A stretch of 44,302 bases of DNA, taken from positions 1 to 44,302 of the IMG/VR virus record IMGVR_UViG_3300028831_000347; one strand, given 5' to 3'. Positions 9,929 to 44,302 of this stretch are shown here, in pieces (position 1 is the stretch's first letter; each line of letters starts with the position of its first letter). Position numbers and translations under genes: made by a program. The stretch is from a virus. The notes under the pieces are model-generated. The model was given only the letters and a program-made list of their open reading frames with translations, was not told where the DNA came from and did not search any database.

Positions 9929-10708
9929 TCAGTAGACCGTTCCGGTCTTGTAGTCGATGTGCCCGCAGACCACCCGCATGTCAACCGCAAAGCGTTTGCC
10001 AGCCCGGCGCGCCTTCGAACACCAAAACAGATCTTGCGTACTCGCGCCGCGGCCCCATTCGTTGAGCGTCTGAAACCAGGGGCCCGGAACGTCGCGAAAG
10101 CTCGCGGTGCGGTAGAGCGAGCAGCCCATCGCGATGCCGTTGCATTCGACAATCTCGCCATGCTGCAGCGCCGAGCGGATATCCCGCGGACGGAAGTCGA
10201 GCACATTCGTGCGCGCGAACTCTGCCGGATCGCCGTAGCACATGGGCATGTTGAAATCGCCCTTCGTCCAATAGAGCGCTCCCACGCCATCGAAGGGCCC
10301 AAGCTCAATGCTCTCCACGAGCTTCTGCACCGCATCGGGCGGCGGCAACGTGTCGTCTTCGAGCGTCAGAACATACTTGCACGTGCCCAGCTCGGGATGC
10401 TCCAAGCAGAGCCGAACCTGCTCATCGTATGCCTTGCCGACCTCGGCGCCCGTCACGAGGAACATGTATCGCCGCTGATTCATCGGCCACGTGAGCGATT
10501 GCAATGCCTGCTGGAAGCGATGGTGTAGCCATGGCCATTCATCGCTACCATCCTCCACAGGGTCCGGCGAGCGCGATGGGATGATGACGATCATCGAACT
10601 GTCGATGTAGCTGGTCTTTGCGACATGCTCGATCCGCTGGAAACCCAGCGGCGCCTTTCCGTTCTTCGCCTCGGGCTGCGGGCGCCGAGGCGGGTTCTTG
10701 CGTTTCAT
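9929..10708 (-). CDS. GT-A-like glycosyltransferase
   Basis: 259 residues. After a basic, proline-rich tail of ~25 residues comes a nucleotide-sugar-transferase-like core: a 'MIVIIPSR' first strand (~39-46), 'YVLTLEDDTLPPPDA' with an acidic EDD at 117-119 in the position of the metal-binding DxD, and a later 'GIAMGCSLYR' acceptor-side segment. This is the layout of GT2-like enzymes that use UDP- or GDP-sugars and a divalent metal. It has a strong GAAAGGCTATC ribosome site and pairs with the methyltransferase downstream. It may glycosylate virion proteins or host glycan. Confidence 0.7.
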   Translation of the reverse strand: MKRKNPPRRPQPEAKNGKAPLGFQRIEHVAKTSYIDSSMIVIIPSRSPDPVEDGSDEWPWLHHRFQQALQSLTWPMNQRRYMFLVTGAEVGKAYDEQVRLCLEHPELGTCKYVLTLEDDTLPPPDAVQKLVESIELGPFDGVGALYWTKGDFNMPMCYGDPAEFARTNVLDFRPRDIRSALQHGEIVECNGIAMGCSLYRTASFRDVPGPWFQTLNEWGRGASTQDLFWCSKARRAGKRFAVDMRVVCGHIDYKTGTVY

Positions 10709-36420: not shown

Positions 36421-36829
36421 CATCCGCCGCGCAGCTCGAGCGTTTGGGCGGGCCCAGAAACTCGACAACATCGACGGCACCTGGCGATGCTGGCGCTGTG
36501 ACACGGAAATGGCATTCCACGAGTCTTTGCACTGCGAGTGGTGCCGTACCGAGGGGGCAGCTCGCGGACGCGCCAGAGAGGCGCGGGAGCGGGCCCTGAG
36601 CGATGAGGATTACCGATGGCGCGGGATGGCTCGAGCGATGCGCAAAGACGACAGGTTGGACCGCGATGCCGGCGTCCGGCTGCTCGAGGCAGCCCGGAAG
36701 CTCAAGAGCGCCACACCCGAACGCATCGAGCGCCTGAGCGAGGCATTCGATCGGCGCTTCGATAACGCGCCGGCGCCCGGGACGTATGTCGTCGAGTACG
36801 ATCAAGCGGAGGACTGGGACCGTGGCTGA
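36338..36829 (+). CDS. Zinc-ribbon protein, possible replication helper
   Basis: 163 residues, GAAAGGCTAACC site before the ATG at 36338. 'CWRC' and 'CEWC' form a zinc ribbon in residues ~51-70. A helical Arg/Asp/Glu-rich C-terminus follows. It overlaps the initiator gene by 83 bp, so both frames are read there. Confidence 0.6.
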   Translation: MDSTKIPDEIANPTIPDLPPSLGGSLGDIRRAARAFGRAQKLDNIDGTWRCWRCDTEMAFHESLHCEWCRTEGAARGRAREARERALSDEDYRWRGMARAMRKDDRLDRDAGVRLLEAARKLKSATPERIERLSEAFDRRFDNAPAPGTYVVEYDQAEDWDRG

Positions 36830-37247
36830 GCGTCGCTACGCCCAGGGCACAACCGTGCCCATAGCCAAGACGCGCGTCGATCTCGAGGCCGTCTTGCGCA
36901 AGCACGGCGCTGACCAGATCATGAGCGGTTCGGACAGCGCCGCTCGCATTGGTTTCGTCGGCTTCACTCTGCGCAAGCGCCAATACCGGATCCAGCTCCC
37001 GGCGCGCTCCATCCGCGGCGTCAAGCCGGACCAGCTCGAGCGCGAACAGTGGCGAGCGCTCCTGCTCATCATCAAGGCCAAGCTCGAGTTCATTCGGGAC
37101 GGATTCACCGAGCCAGAGCAGGAGTTCATGGCACACGTCGTGCTCCCGAATGGCGCCACCGTTGGGGAGGAGCTCGCGCCCCGCCTCGCTGAGGCCTACG
37201 CGACCGGCAACATGCCAAGGCTGCTGCCGGGAGGTCGCGATGGGTGA
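36822..37247 (+). CDS. Conserved phage protein (GTG start)
   Basis: 141 residues, GGAGGA ahead of the GTG at 36822. 'TRVDLEAVLRKHGADQI' then 'GFTLRKRQYRIQLPARS' and 'EQWRALLLIIKAKLEFIRDGF.EPEQEFMAHVVLPNG' match a widespread phage family of unknown function usually located near replication genes. It overlaps the upstream gene by 8 bp. Confidence 0.7.
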   Translation: MAERRYAQGTTVPIAKTRVDLEAVLRKHGADQIMSGSDSAARIGFVGFTLRKRQYRIQLPARSIRGVKPDQLEREQWRALLLIIKAKLEFIRDGFTEPEQEFMAHVVLPNGATVGEELAPRLAEAYATGNMPRLLPGGRDG

Positions 37248-38909: not shown

Positions 38910-40973
38910 ATGAGCCCAAAGATTCCAAAGTCGATCGCATTGGTCGACTTCATGCACATGCTGACCGTTCACTTCAAAGCGATGGCCAGCGATGCTGGTC
39001 CCAATGACGCAGGCCAGCGCACACTGAACGAACTGGCCGCGATTCGCCAAGCGTCCGATCACGTCATCGTCTGCATGGACTCGCCGCCGTACTGGCGCAA
39101 GACCGTGTTCCCCGGGTACAAGGCTGGCCGCGAACGAGAGCCAGAGTTCGGCGCCATCGTCAAGTGGACGATCGAACGGCTACACGCCGACGGCTACAAC
39201 GTCGCGGCGGCGCCCACCGAAGAAGCGGACGATGTAGCCGCCTGTCTCGCCACGATCTACAGTGAGGAATATGGATGCGAGGATGTGCGCATCGTCGGCG
39301 CCGACAAGGATGCGTTGCAGTTGGTCACCGATCAGGTGCGCTGCTTCGTGCCGAAGGGGCGGGGAGAGTTCGAGATTCGTGGCATCGACTGGGTTCTGAA
39401 GCATTTCGGAGGCGTCGACTGGGAAGCGGAGGCGAAGAAAGACCCGAGCGTGAAGCCAATCGAGCCAAAGGACATCGCGCTCGCGCTCGCCATCATGGGC
39501 GACACGTCGGATAAGATTCCCGGGATCAAGGGGATCGGGATCAAGAACGCGGCGCGCCTCATCAACGCTTACAAGAACCCAGAGGGTATGGCCGTGGCAT
39601 GCGTGGCCCGGGTCCAGGCCGCCAAGGTGACAGGCAAGCTGCCCGCGCTCTGGAAGAACTATGCAGAGGGGATGGCGGACCTGCCGAAGTGGCTTAAGCT
39701 CACGACGCTGAAGCGCGATGTGGCGCTCGAAAAGCATCCGCTGAAGTATCTCGAAAAGCTGCCCATGCAGAAGCTGGTCGACGACGACGAGGGCACGATC
39801 TCGTTCATCGACGAGGGCGAGCTGGAGGATGCTGCTGCAGAGGCGGTCGACTGGGATGCCATCGCGGCCGAGACCGAAGCTCGCGAGCGTGAAGCTCTCG
39901 CCGCGGCGCTCCCGGTCTCGGCCCCTCCCGGCTGGCCACAGGGTGGCTTAGAGCCCCCTGTCGATCCGGTGAAACTGCCCGACGGATACCAGAAGACGGC
40001 GGAACCGGGCGTGTTCACCAAGACGTTCACCGCAGAGCCCCGCATCGGCAAAGACCCGAAGGCGGACGAGCACCTAAAGCGCGCCGCCGATGAGCGCAAG
40101 CGGGAGCGCCCACCGGAACAGGTCGCCGCCGACAATGCGAAAGAGGCGTCCAGGGTTCGCCCTGACGGGCGCACGCAGGCTCAGGCGCTCGAAGACGAGC
40201 GGATCGATCGCCATGGCGTCAAGCGCCCGGATCCGACGGTGCTCGACCCGATGCGGAACGTTCCCGCGGAATCGCAAGAAGCGATCCGTGGTCTGGCTGA
40301 ACGAACGGGAAAAGAAGCCGCCGCTGCGACCGTTTCTGCTGCTACCGCTACGCCGTCGGCTCCCGCTGCGTCTGCGGCGCCGGCCGCCGCTGAAGTCGTG
40401 CCGAAGTCGCAGGGGCCACGCAAAGGCGATGAAATACCACAGCCAACGGATCTCATCCGCGTGCCGGCTCCGAGCTGGGCTCTCGCCACGCAGCCCTCGA
40501 GCGCCGCCGAGATGCTGGCCGTGTCCAAGACGCTCTTCAACTCGCGGTTCTATAGCCAATATGGCAGCGAGCGCGGCGTGTTCGCCGTCATGGCGCTCGG
40601 GCGCGAACTAGCGATGGGCTTTGCCGAGTCGCTAGAATCATTCTTCATCGTGAACGAACGTCCATTCATGAAGGCCGTGACCATTCTGGCGCGTGCGCAG
40701 AAGCATCCAGACTGCGAATGGATCTTCGTGACGTCAGCCGACGAGAAGCAAGCCACGATCAAAACAAAGCACCGGCGAGCGGGCGATCTGGAATACCAAT
40801 ACACGATCGAGCGCGCCGCAAAGGCGGGCTATCTGACGGGCAAGAACAAGTTCAATTGGGAGACCAAGACACAGGAGATGCTCGAAGCGCGCGCCATCAG
40901 TAAAGGCGTGCGCCGCTGGTACCCCGGCGTGTGCTTCGGCATGCACGCATTCGAGGAGGCCAATGATGACTGA
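38910..40973 (+). CDS. Fused 5' flap nuclease and RecT-like annealing protein
   Basis: 687 residues in one frame. N-terminal domain (~1-275) is a FEN/T5-type 5'-3' exonuclease: D13 in ALVDF, 'FPGYKAGRE', D107-D108 in EADD, D132/D134 in GADKD, D198/D201 in GDTSD, then helix-hairpin-helix 'PGIKGIGIKNAARLI'. A Pro/Ala-rich linker (~400-500) leads to a RecT-like domain (~510-687): 'LFNSRFYSQYG', 'GRELAMGFAESLESFFIVNERPFMKA', 'KFNWETKTQEMLEARAISKGVRRWYPGV'. The nuclease would resect 5' ends and the annealer would pair the exposed strand, so one chain could run phage recombination. A GAAAGCG site lies upstream. The fusion is read directly; the activity is inferred. Confidence 0.8.
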   Translation: MSPKIPKSIALVDFMHMLTVHFKAMASDAGPNDAGQRTLNELAAIRQASDHVIVCMDSPPYWRKTVFPGYKAGREREPEFGAIVKWTIERLHADGYNVAAAPTEEADDVAACLATIYSEEYGCEDVRIVGADKDALQLVTDQVRCFVPKGRGEFEIRGIDWVLKHFGGVDWEAEAKKDPSVKPIEPKDIALALAIMGDTSDKIPGIKGIGIKNAARLINAYKNPEGMAVACVARVQAAKVTGKLPALWKNYAEGMADLPKWLKLTTLKRDVALEKHPLKYLEKLPMQKLVDDDEGTISFIDEGELEDAAAEAVDWDAIAAETEAREREALAAALPVSAPPGWPQGGLEPPVDPVKLPDGYQKTAEPGVFTKTFTAEPRIGKDPKADEHLKRAADERKRERPPEQVAADNAKEASRVRPDGRTQAQALEDERIDRHGVKRPDPTVLDPMRNVPAESQEAIRGLAERTGKEAAAATVSAATATPSAPAASAAPAAAEVVPKSQGPRKGDEIPQPTDLIRVPAPSWALATQPSSAAEMLAVSKTLFNSRFYSQYGSERGVFAVMALGRELAMGFAESLESFFIVNERPFMKAVTILARAQKHPDCEWIFVTSADEKQATIKTKHRRAGDLEYQYTIERAAKAGYLTGKNKFNWETKTQEMLEARAISKGVRRWYPGVCFGMHAFEEANDD

Positions 40974-41427
40974 GCGCATCGTGATCGTCGGTGGGCCGCG
41001 GCGCGGAAAGAGCACGCTGGCTCAGGAGATCGTCAACTCCGTGTTCTCGCACCCGGCGCCATGGGTGATCCATCACCGGTGCGGCGATCCGTTGTCGAAG
41101 GTCAAAGACCCGTTGCCGCAGGTCGAATACCTGCCCGAGAAGATTCCCTTTGCTGGCGACGAGGGTGCCGCTCAGTGGGTCACCGACAACTGGTTCCCGA
41201 TGCCAGGACCATGGGTGCTCGAAGGCCACGTGATGGCGCGCGCGCTGCTGAGATGGCTCGACGGCAAGCGCGGAGACGATCCCGACTATCCCTGCGATCG
41301 CATCTTCGTCCTGGACCGCCCGGGATTCGGAATGCCGAGCCCGCGCCAAAACTCGATGCACAAAGGCGTGATGACCACGTGGTCCAAGATCGCCGATTAC
41401 TTCGAACCGATCACCGAATATCGCTAG
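40963..41427 (+). CDS. P-loop nucleotide-binding protein, kinase-like
   Basis: 154 residues (ATG at 40963 or 40966, GAGGAGG ahead). Walker A GGPRRGKST (~residues 10-18) and a later 'RIFVLDRPGF' strand place it among P-loop kinases. A deoxynucleotide monophosphate kinase is the most usual phage form, but substrate residues could not be fixed. Its TAG shares CTAG with the antisense gene's stop. It overlaps the previous gene by 11 bp. Confidence 0.65.
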   Translation: MMTERIVIVGGPRRGKSTLAQEIVNSVFSHPAPWVIHHRCGDPLSKVKDPLPQVEYLPEKIPFAGDEGAAQWVTDNWFPMPGPWVLEGHVMARALLRWLDGKRGDDPDYPCDRIFVLDRPGFGMPSPRQNSMHKGVMTTWSKIADYFEPITEYR

Positions 41428-44302
41428 CCCATCTGCCCGAACGTCGCTCCGCCGCTGATTGTCGCGGCGAGCGGCGCCGGCTTCGGCGGCCTGAGCTCGC
41501 CGCCGCCGCGCTTCATATGCTGCTGTTGCTGGTCCATGTTGTACTGGCGCACGGCATTACCGTATTCGCGCGAGAAGATCGGCGAGCCTATCCCGTCGAC
41601 GTCGGGGAACAGCAGCCCAGCCCGAACCAGAAACGAATCCCCGAGCGGAGTCCCCGTCGCCTCGGCCTTGCCGATGGCCTCGATTACCCGCTGTTGCGCC
41701 CGCTCATACAGCCGCGGGTAGACGGTCTTCAGGGCCTCGACCTCGGGCTGCGAAATGGCGCCGATGTCACGGATCACGCGCGTCGGGAAGCGCACGGCAT
41801 TCACGTATTCGGCCCAGTCCTCGATGCTCTCTCGGCTCGGCGGGTAGCCATCGGGCTTGGCCATGCTGACGGCCACGTTGGGTGGCATGCGGTCGATCAG
41901 GAATTGCCGGGCGATGCTGGCGCGCCCGGACAGCATCATGAACGTGTCCGGGTCCTCGCGAGCGAGCGCATCGTAATCGGTGCCCAGCATCTCGAAGAAC
42001 TTGTCCTGATCGAGAATCGCATCGCGCACGCGCTCGAAGGCGGCCGCCGGTGAACCGTCATCGCCCTGAAATAGCGCCATCCCCTGGGAGATGCCGCGGC
42101 GGGCGGCCACGTCGCGCAGCTGCCGCGCCTCGTCGGAGAGCTGGAGCACCTTTGGCATGCGGACGCCGGCGCTCTTCAGGCGGCTCGAGCGGATCCAGTC
42201 GTCAACGCCGCGCGCCAGCGCCTGGTCTGTGGCGCCGGAGAGACGCTGGTAGGCAGAGACCAGGTCACCGAGCACGAAGCCCCGGACGGCGCCCGGGAGC
42301 GCCGCGCCGATGGCTGCGCCGGGGAACCCGCCTGCGAGTCCTCCCGCGAGCGCCCCGCCGTAGGGCACGCCGCCCACGAGCTCGCCGAGCGCCTTCATCC
42401 GCTCGGTCGCGTCCGATACCTCGTCGGCGAGCCCGATAGTTCGGCGGATCTTCGCGGTCCCGTCCTCGATGCGCGCCGCCGTCTTGGCATCACCGAACTG
42501 TCGCCGCACGCTCGCGAGCTGGTCCATCGCGTCGAGCACGTTGCCGACGTGCCGGCGCGCTCCCGGATCGGCATCCTTCAGGAGCCTTCCGATCTTGGAC
42601 TCCCAGCCCTCCACGTTCCACATGCCCTCATAGTTCTTGCTCGTGCGCTCGAGCGTCTTGTTCTCGAAGATCTTCCAACTCGGGATGAGCTGGTCGGCGA
42701 TCACGGCATTGTAAGCGCGCTGCATGTCGCCGGCCTGACCCCAGGTCCCGGAGTCTTCCAGCGCCGTGCGAATCTTCTGGGCGAAGGTGTCGATGCGGGG
42801 TATCAGCTGCTGATGGTGGATCGGATTGGCGCTGTTCAACGCCCCCTGCTCGAGGTTGAGCTTGTACTCCTGTGCGGTTCGCTTGAAGCCGTCCAGAGCC
42901 TCAAACAGAGCCTTGCCGGTCTTCGCCTGCTGAACCTGCTTCGCGTTGTCCATGAGAGCGATGGTGAGGCTCTTCTGGCCAGGGATTGCGTACTGAAGGC
43001 CCTCCTTTCCCGATGCGGCTGCGTACGCTCGAGCTTCAGCCCGGAGCTCACCCGCGAACTTTGCAGCATCCTCGGCGATCACGCCTGCTACGGCACGCTG
43101 TGCTCCGAGATTGTCGCTGACATGCGTAGCAATGGATGCGAGCTTGTCTGCCCGCGTGACCTGATCGACATCCTTTACGAGTTTGGTCAGGTCTTGCCCC
43201 ATCTCACGGGCGGCGACCTCCTGGATCGCTTGCCGGTTGATGTAGAGCCGACGCTGCCGCCCAAATGAATCTGTCTCTTTTACTGGCACGGCGCCGTGCG
43301 TAGCGCTGGACACGATGTCTTCGGCATCCGCCTTCGATGCGTTGCGGAGCGCGCGTTCTACGCCAGCCTCGACCGCCTCGCGCTCGCCCTGGCGGACGGC
43401 GCCGTCGGCAACCGGCGCGGCTTTGATGCGCACGGGCCCGACGTAATCCCAGATCGTGTTTCCCTCGGCATCGTACTTTTTGACGTTCATCGCGATCTCT
43501 TCGAGACCCGCTTGCCGCCCCGCCGTCACGCGATGGCGCCCGTTGCCGAGCGAGGGCGGCTCGTCGGGAAACAGAGAAAGGATCGGCAAGCCGCCACGCC
43601 CGCGGTCGTTGTTTGACGGCAACATTCCCTCGCGGAGAAACGTCTCGTCTTTGGCGAATGCCGCGACCTTGGCGGCGCTCTCGGCTTCGCCCGGTCCTCC
43701 CTCGAGTGGAATTGCCCGCAAGTCCTTCAGCGACATGCCGGCAATGCCCCGCTCCCGGAGCTGGTCGAGCTCGGGCGCGATCGCCGCGAGCCGCGGATCG
43801 TCGGGAGCGACCTGGTCGAGCATCCCCTCGGCGTCCGGAAGGTGAACGTCTTCGAGCGGCGCCCGTGGTGCAGGGGGTGCAGGTGCGGCAGCGGGGACCG
43901 CCTCGTCGATCACCCCTTCGGCTCGGTGTTCCGCGGACTTGGCTATGTCATCGAGGTCGCGCTCGATCACCTCCGGAACCGCCTCGTCCACCGTTCGAGC
44001 GACACCACGCGTTCGGAGCCCCGGAGCGCCGAGCCCGAAGTTGATCCCGCCCCAAAGCAGCACATCCTCGGCGAACTTGCCCGGATCATCCTCGAAGTCG
44101 CGCCCCTCGGCATAGGCCGATTGGCCTGCGCCCACGAGACCGGTCCCGAGACTCTCGCCCGCGAGCGCCGCCGCGCCGCCCGCGCGCGCCGCCGCCAGGC
44201 CCGCCCGTACGATGCCGGCACCCTCGGCCAGGGCTGCCCGACCTGCAGCTCTCCCGGCGCCCGTAGCGAGGCCGCCAAGGCCGCCCGTGAGCGCCGCAAC
44301 GC
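41424..44302 (-). CDS. Very large ejection-type virion protein, rest of the gene (runs off the right edge)
   Basis: The main part (~residues 147-1058) of the gene that begins at 439. Residues ~340-370 hold 'LGNGRHRVTAGRQAGLEEI', a pattern like the ParB/sulfiredoxin-type nuclease core. A Gly/Ala-rich hydrophobic stretch near residue ~760-800 ('LVGGVPYGGALAGGLAGGFPG') could insert in a membrane. The C-terminus is charged and helical. Position and size fit a core protein that enters the host with the DNA. The stop overlaps the convergent kinase-like gene's stop at CTAG. Confidence 0.7.
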   Translation of the reverse strand, partial: VAALTGGLGGLATGAGRAAGRAALAEGAGIVRAGLAAARAGGAAALAGESLGTGLVGAGQSAYAEGRDFEDDPGKFAEDVLLWGGINFGLGAPGLRTRGVARTVDEAVPEVIERDLDDIAKSAEHRAEGVIDEAVPAAAPAPPAPRAPLEDVHLPDAEGMLDQVAPDDPRLAAIAPELDQLRERGIAGMSLKDLRAIPLEGGPGEAESAAKVAAFAKDETFLREGMLPSNNDRGRGGLPILSLFPDEPPSLGNGRHRVTAGRQAGLEEIAMNVKKYDAEGNTIWDYVGPVRIKAAPVADGAVRQGEREAVEAGVERALRNASKADAEDIVSSATHGAVPVKETDSFGRQRRLYINRQAIQEVAAREMGQDLTKLVKDVDQVTRADKLASIATHVSDNLGAQRAVAGVIAEDAAKFAGELRAEARAYAAASGKEGLQYAIPGQKSLTIALMDNAKQVQQAKTGKALFEALDGFKRTAQEYKLNLEQGALNSANPIHHQQLIPRIDTFAQKIRTALEDSGTWGQAGDMQRAYNAVIADQLIPSWKIFENKTLERTSKNYEGMWNVEGWESKIGRLLKDADPGARRHVGNVLDAMDQLASVRRQFGDAKTAARIEDGTAKIRRTIGLADEVSDATERMKALGELVGGVPYGGALAGGLAGGFPGAAIGAALPGAVRGFVLGDLVSAYQRLSGATDQALARGVDDWIRSSRLKSAGVRMPKVLQLSDEARQLRDVAARRGISQGMALFQGDDGSPAAAFERVRDAILDQDKFFEMLGTDYDALAREDPDTFMMLSGRASIARQFLIDRMPPNVAVSMAKPDGYPPSRESIEDWAEYVNAVRFPTRVIRDIGAISQPEVEALKTVYPRLYERAQQRVIEAIGKAEATGTPLGDSFLVRAGLLFPDVDGIGSPIFSREYGNAVRQYNMDQQQQHMKRGGGELRPPKPAPLAATISGGATFGQMG
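44162..44302. repeat. Right copy of 141-bp terminal direct repeat
   Basis: Identical to 1-141. Present twice in the window but probably once in the genome. Confidence 0.95.

Follow-up and report, generated by a model that had tools for sequence, protein, structure and literature searches.

In λ Exo/Redβ and RecE/RecT (the "EATR" or "SynExo" systems), a 5′–3′ exonuclease and a RecT/Redβ-type annealer are encoded together but made as two proteins, which dock via the C-terminal domain of the annealer and of which the nuclease has the PD-(D/E)XK fold. Such exonuclease–annealer pairs are the basis of recombineering. FEN-family nucleases also take part in viral recombination, one example being T7 gp6 exonuclease together with gp2.5. 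The FEN1-like nuclease of poxviruses is a further case (cited in PMC7824862); in both the T7 and the poxvirus systems annealing falls to a second protein with a different fold. Phage and bacterial FEN-type 5′ exonucleases (the N-terminal domain of Pol I, T5 D15, T7 gp6, Xni, and the standalone proteins of phrog_107) share two Pfam domains and a set of acidic metal ligands, and they either stand alone or are fused to a DNA polymerase. The locus described here, from IMG/VR virus record IMGVR_UViG_3300028831_000347 (all 44,302 nucleotides of which were analyzed and are called the window), encodes the same two domains and the same ligand set, fused instead to a RecT-type annealing core. No report of a FEN–RecT fusion was found by a literature text search whose coverage mostly lay outside subscription journals, so that an earlier mention is possible.

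Architecture of the fusion protein

The fusion gene occupies positions 38910..40973 on the plus strand as one uninterrupted frame of 687 codons from ATG to stop, and its codon-position GC content is coding-like along the full length, linker included. The preliminary description had proposed a single frame joining two halves through a long Ala/Pro linker, and this holds: the linker spans residues 282 to 522 (39753..40475; 241 aa), is rich in Ala, Pro, and Glu, and is poorly conserved. A structure prediction of the full-length protein, made from an alignment of two sequences only, reached a pLDDT of 35.

The N-terminal half matches both domains of the FEN-type 5′ nucleases. Residues 11 to 159 (38940..39386) form the 5′–3′ exonuclease N-terminal (PIN/resolvase-like) domain (PF02739; E 8e-19, 68.3 bits against a cut-off of 34.3), carrying ligand positions D13, D57, E105, D107, D108, D132, and D134. 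Residues 185 to 276 (39462..39737) form the C-terminal (helix-3-turn-helix/SAM) domain (PF01367; E 3e-13, 50.5 bits against a cut-off of 40), with D198 and D201 in the motif GDTSDKIPG. The half was also matched by phrog_107 "exonuclease" (E 2e-27) and by the NCBIfam models for the 5′ nuclease region of Pol I and for Xni. It could be aligned to the Taq and mycobacterial Pol I 5′ nucleases in the PDB, and a profile built from the window protein and its closest relative retrieved Pol I, mycobacterial FEN, Xni, and T5 exonuclease from the PDB. Together with the complete acidic cluster, these matches bear out the earlier assignment of this half to the FEN-type 5′ nucleases. Between the two FEN domains, the window protein carries a 16-residue insertion (39411–39461, about residues 168 to 184) seen in no other of the seven fusions described below.

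Residues 523 to 687 (40476..40970) form the putative RecT/Redβ-type annealing core. The PHROG family phrog_4171, "RecT-like ssDNA annealing protein," matches residues 561 to 684 (E 6e-8), while a Pfam search of the window protein itself gave no RecT match. Since a profile search of PDB sequences with the annealing domain was likewise blank, the fold link to RecT/Redβ rests on an AlphaFold model of the last 183 residues, computed from an alignment of 46 sequences. The model (mean pLDDT 81) shows a beta hairpin, a helix, a three-stranded sheet, and helices, which is the element order of the core common to LiRecT and RAD52, namely hairpin, helix, three-stranded sheet, and helix (PMC9772228). Foldseek ranked λ Redβ (7ujl) first (probability 1.00, E 1.7e-3) and LiRecT second (probability 0.89), and the similarity of the core to the Redβ fold corresponds to a TM score of about 0.45. 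In VIA-align, Redβ scored Z 7.1, LiRecT 5.9, and RAD52 5.1, with Sak and Mgm101 also below Redβ and LiRecT; unrelated double-strand-RNA-binding folds also came near Z 5–6, which makes this a moderate fold match, to be weighed jointly with the sequence evidence.

That sequence evidence includes relatives that bridge the window core to recognized RecT proteins. RecT-like relatives in phage records belong to Gordonia phages and two Manatee Spring phages, and in three such relatives tested the Pfam RecT score was above the cut-off in two (L006 and L007) and just below it in one (L008). A DNA pattern drawn from the annealer family found 119 viral contigs, most of which encode a protein of ∼230–330 aa with the domain near its start. 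The C-terminal part had been described beforehand as a RecT-like annealer, and the PHROG match, the bridging relatives, the predicted fold, and the operon context of the relatives (see below) agree with that assignment. An alternative is that this domain is a ssDNA-binding RecT relative that serves only to tether or target the nuclease, without annealing DNA. The presence of the core alone, the position of the window member below Pfam RecT detection, and a difference in the last core helix from one branch of the fusion clade to the other would all fit such a role. We nevertheless regard it as highly improbable, given that the whole core is present in the model and that the corresponding part of Redβ, residues 1 to 177, can anneal by itself in vitro (PMC9512822).

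The end of the fusion gene overlaps by 11 bases with a downstream gene for a 154-aa P-loop protein (40963..41427, plus strand; motif GGPRRGKS). This protein, which may be a nucleotide kinase or an ATPase linked to recombination, is conserved in the closest relative of the window, where its gene also overlaps that of the fusion. Upstream of the fusion gene are encoded an HNH endonuclease and a protein weakly similar to replication initiators (phrog_1408, E 0.006; DnaT, E 0.03).

A family of FEN–RecT fusions

The same fusion is encoded in the closest relative (IMGVR_UViG_3300038330_000039; L001), a virus record of 43 kb, as a 653-aa protein with 52% identity, in a similar neighboring gene order. 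Conservation between the two genes at codon positions 1, 2, and 3 was 0.71, 0.73, and 0.47 in the FEN part, 0.70, 0.74, and 0.50 in the RecT part, and 0.46, 0.48, and 0.33 in the linker. This excess of the first two positions over the third in both domains, smaller in the linker, is as expected if both domains are selected as protein.

Five further contigs carry the full fusion, at ∼28–33% identity. One turned up when about 800 Pseudomonadota genomes were sampled: it lies in a genome (G535) of the same order as Jezberella, where locus L163 encodes a single 485-aa chain in which Pfam matches both FEN (E 3e-25 and 1e-22) and RecT (E 2e-7; 31.1 bits, the cut-off being 24). Annealer-profile searches of about 1,170 genomes around Pseudomonadota, drawn as samples and not as a census, gave about a dozen matches, of which this was the one fusion. 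A motif common to the first three fusions, A-x-x-[IL]-[IL]-[AS]-R-x3-HPDCE, was then used as a search pattern and gave five viral contigs, all five encoding fusions and four of them new. In all, the exonuclease and the annealer are encoded as a unit, in one frame, in seven contigs, which are phages or phage-like. No fusion was found in 50,697 phage records and 72,556 plasmid records, where coverage of the window or L163 protein nowhere reached 80%.

First scans had suggested that the fusion was private to one phage pair; a genome-search match inside a 499-aa frame and the clade-specific DNA pattern overturned this. Chance or an assembly chimera as the source of the fused frame was ruled out by its recurrence in six more contigs, five of which lie in a branch of their own.

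Both FEN domains (PF02739 and PF01367) are matched in all seven members, and the nine acidic ligand positions are identical in 7/7. Pfam RecT is matched in 5/7, which places FEN and RecT in one chain by Pfam, and phrog_4171 in 6/7; other RecT-like or Bet-like PHROGs are matched in several members. The seven fusions form one clade in a tree of 50 RecT-domain sequences (support 98/89; 98% of bootstrap trees) and again in a tree of 22 FEN-domain sequences (99/98), and the main grouping inside the clade is the same in both. The simplest reading of these sequence trees would be that the domains fused once and were inherited together thereafter, although long branches leave the deep placement in the trees unsure.

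Linker length varies from 60–81 aa in the five distant fusions to 220 aa in the closest relative and 241 aa in the window. The length and poor conservation of the window linker could suggest two independent enzymes that merely share a frame, either separated by processing or with the annealer also made alone from an internal start, so that the linkage would have no mechanistic meaning. In-frame ATGs do occur in the linkers of the window and L001, some with weak ribosome-site-like sequence. Against this reading, the candidate starts lie at non-matching positions in the two genes, seven contigs retain the fusion across linkers of 60–241 aa, and the two domain trees agree in their grouping; we consider it very unlikely. 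With the fusion present in six more contigs, it seems that one chain combines recombination steps that are usually divided between two proteins.

Nuclease partners, the missing C-terminal region, and a proposed mechanism

Standalone relatives of the annealing core are associated with nucleases of another fold. In 77 loci a YqaJ (PD-(D/E)XK) exonuclease gene lies upstream of the annealer on the same strand, usually within a few hundred bases; among the loci of these standalone relatives, none had YqaJ on the opposite strand and none had a FEN gene beside the annealer. In Gordonia phages the upstream gene is a DUF3799 RecE-like exonuclease. These partners agree with a survey in which recT co-occurs with YqaJ or DUF3799 exonucleases (PMC8093625). 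The phrog_4171-type annealers next to YqaJ (MW202825 and MW202753 are examples) or next to the RecE-like exonuclease (Gordonia phages Adora and Evamon) have a core homologous to that of the fusions and a position downstream of the exonuclease, but they are separate genes. Conversely, in about 29 other phage FEN loci, sampled by FEN motif, the FEN proteins are 250–373 aa long and stand alone, and none of these loci had a RecT-like neighbor. It had been stated at the outset that phage exonucleases and annealers are usually separate genes with nucleases of other folds, and the 77 YqaJ-type loci, against none with FEN, agree. The comparison shows that the annealer family switched its nuclease partner in evolution.

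In two of the fusion contigs an SSB gene adjoins. The stop codon of the L163 fusion and the start codon of an SSB gene (PF00436, E 3e-17) have one base in common, and in L168 an SSB-like frame directly follows the fusion; an SSB gene adjoining the fusion was not found in the other five contigs. In staphylococcal phages, annealer and SSB genes work as a functional pair that replication requires and that takes part in concatemer formation (PMC5499656).

The fusions also differ from standalone relatives at their C-terminal end. Among 108 complete viral relatives, 62–149 aa follow the core (median 112), whereas all seven fusions end 2–5 residues past the conserved EE that closes it. Redβ residues 178 to 261, beyond the part that suffices for annealing, bind λ Exo (PMC9512822), and a protein deprived of the C-terminal region still anneals but no longer supports recombination (PMC5052646). 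Absence of this region from a protein with its own nuclease fits a replacement of docking by linkage, and we infer by analogy with Redβ that the covalent linkage stands in for the C-terminal docking domain. The tail-less core had appeared unique to the fusions, an idea weakened by L172 and L175 of genome G1070, a closely similar pair of short RecT-like genes that lie on separate contigs. These are standalone genes with RecE-like exonuclease genes upstream and ∼28–37 residues after the core, so a short tail is possible without fusion.

The reading we favor, and consider probable, is that the protein is a single-chain exonuclease–annealase for phage recombination, concatemer formation, and repair, in which linkage replaces docking and both activities are predicted. 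The FEN-type half would degrade or trim 5′ strands at ends, nicks, and gaps of phage DNA, and this removal would expose 3′ single strands. The tethered RecT-type half would then assemble on the exposed strand and anneal a complementary one, so that both halves would act in one reaction leading to recombination, concatemer formation, or repair. The nuclease and annealing activities, their joint action, and the biological role are all inferred here. The protein would thus work like λ Red and RecET, yet it falls outside that two-protein class, having a FEN-type nuclease in place of PD-(D/E)XK and both functions in one chain.

Cellular FEN enzymes act chiefly in flap and primer trimming, and resection is therefore not the sole possible role of the FEN half. 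The order of events could be reversed in an enzyme of the replication fork, in which the RecT half first anneals strands, at lagging-strand gaps for instance, after which the FEN half removes 5′ flaps and RNA primers so that ligase can act. FEN-like 5′–3′ exonucleases are indeed best known for 5′-flap processing in Okazaki fragment maturation (PMC12926913). A lone FEN domain without a polymerase is common in phages, and no Pol I-type polymerase was found in the window record. On the other hand, gene order ties the annealer family to resection exonucleases, whose place the FEN domain occupies in the fusions. Flap trimming, moreover, is already supplied by host Pol I. On balance, we regard annealing followed by trimming as unlikely, and the single-chain exonuclease–annealase as the better account.

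A more specific form of the exonuclease–annealase reading is held tentatively, at somewhat less than an even chance. The protein could be a self-contained one-polypeptide recombinase in which the FEN domain feeds the exposed strand to its own annealer within a many-chain oligomer, with no need for specific docking. It would then represent a distinct architecture of recombination module, of single origin and present in diverse phages, with SSB as a third component in some. In the two-protein systems partners are not freely exchangeable: neither the combination of RecE and Redβ nor that of Red alpha and RecT functions on double-stranded substrates (PMC5052646). A natural fusion to a nuclease of another fold asks whether specific docking is needed or whether proximity alone suffices, and it makes the protein a candidate one-gene recombineering enzyme.

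Genome context and the absence of a DNA polymerase

The window carries an exact direct terminal repeat of 141 bp (positions 1–141 are identical to 44162–44302), and a minus-strand gene stays in frame when the two ends are joined. These two features make it probable that the record is a whole genome of about 44.16 kb, either circular or terminally redundant. No match to DNA polymerase A, DNA polymerase B, or Pol III alpha was obtained in the window or in its closest relative, nor any to SSB or YqaJ, and with a probably complete genome the lack of a recognized polymerase is likely real. Phages without a polymerase generally rely on the host replicase. The further proposal of the preliminary description, that the fusion could explain phage growth without a visible DNA polymerase, is not supported, because neither domain polymerizes DNA and polymerase-less phages use the host enzyme; a missing polymerase is ordinary for such phages, and the fusion protein is no explanation for its absence.

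The structural genes of this phage group go unrecognized by current libraries. Across window positions 1–34000, the large minus-strand frames are almost all without a PHROG or Pfam match, yet many have homologues in the closest relative. Exceptions in this region are a glucosaminidase domain in 442–2724 and a weak glycosyltransferase match in 9932–10708. Outside it, the frame at 36786–37247 strongly matches phrog_17260 (E 1e-32), a family of unknown function and one of the few families recognized in the window.
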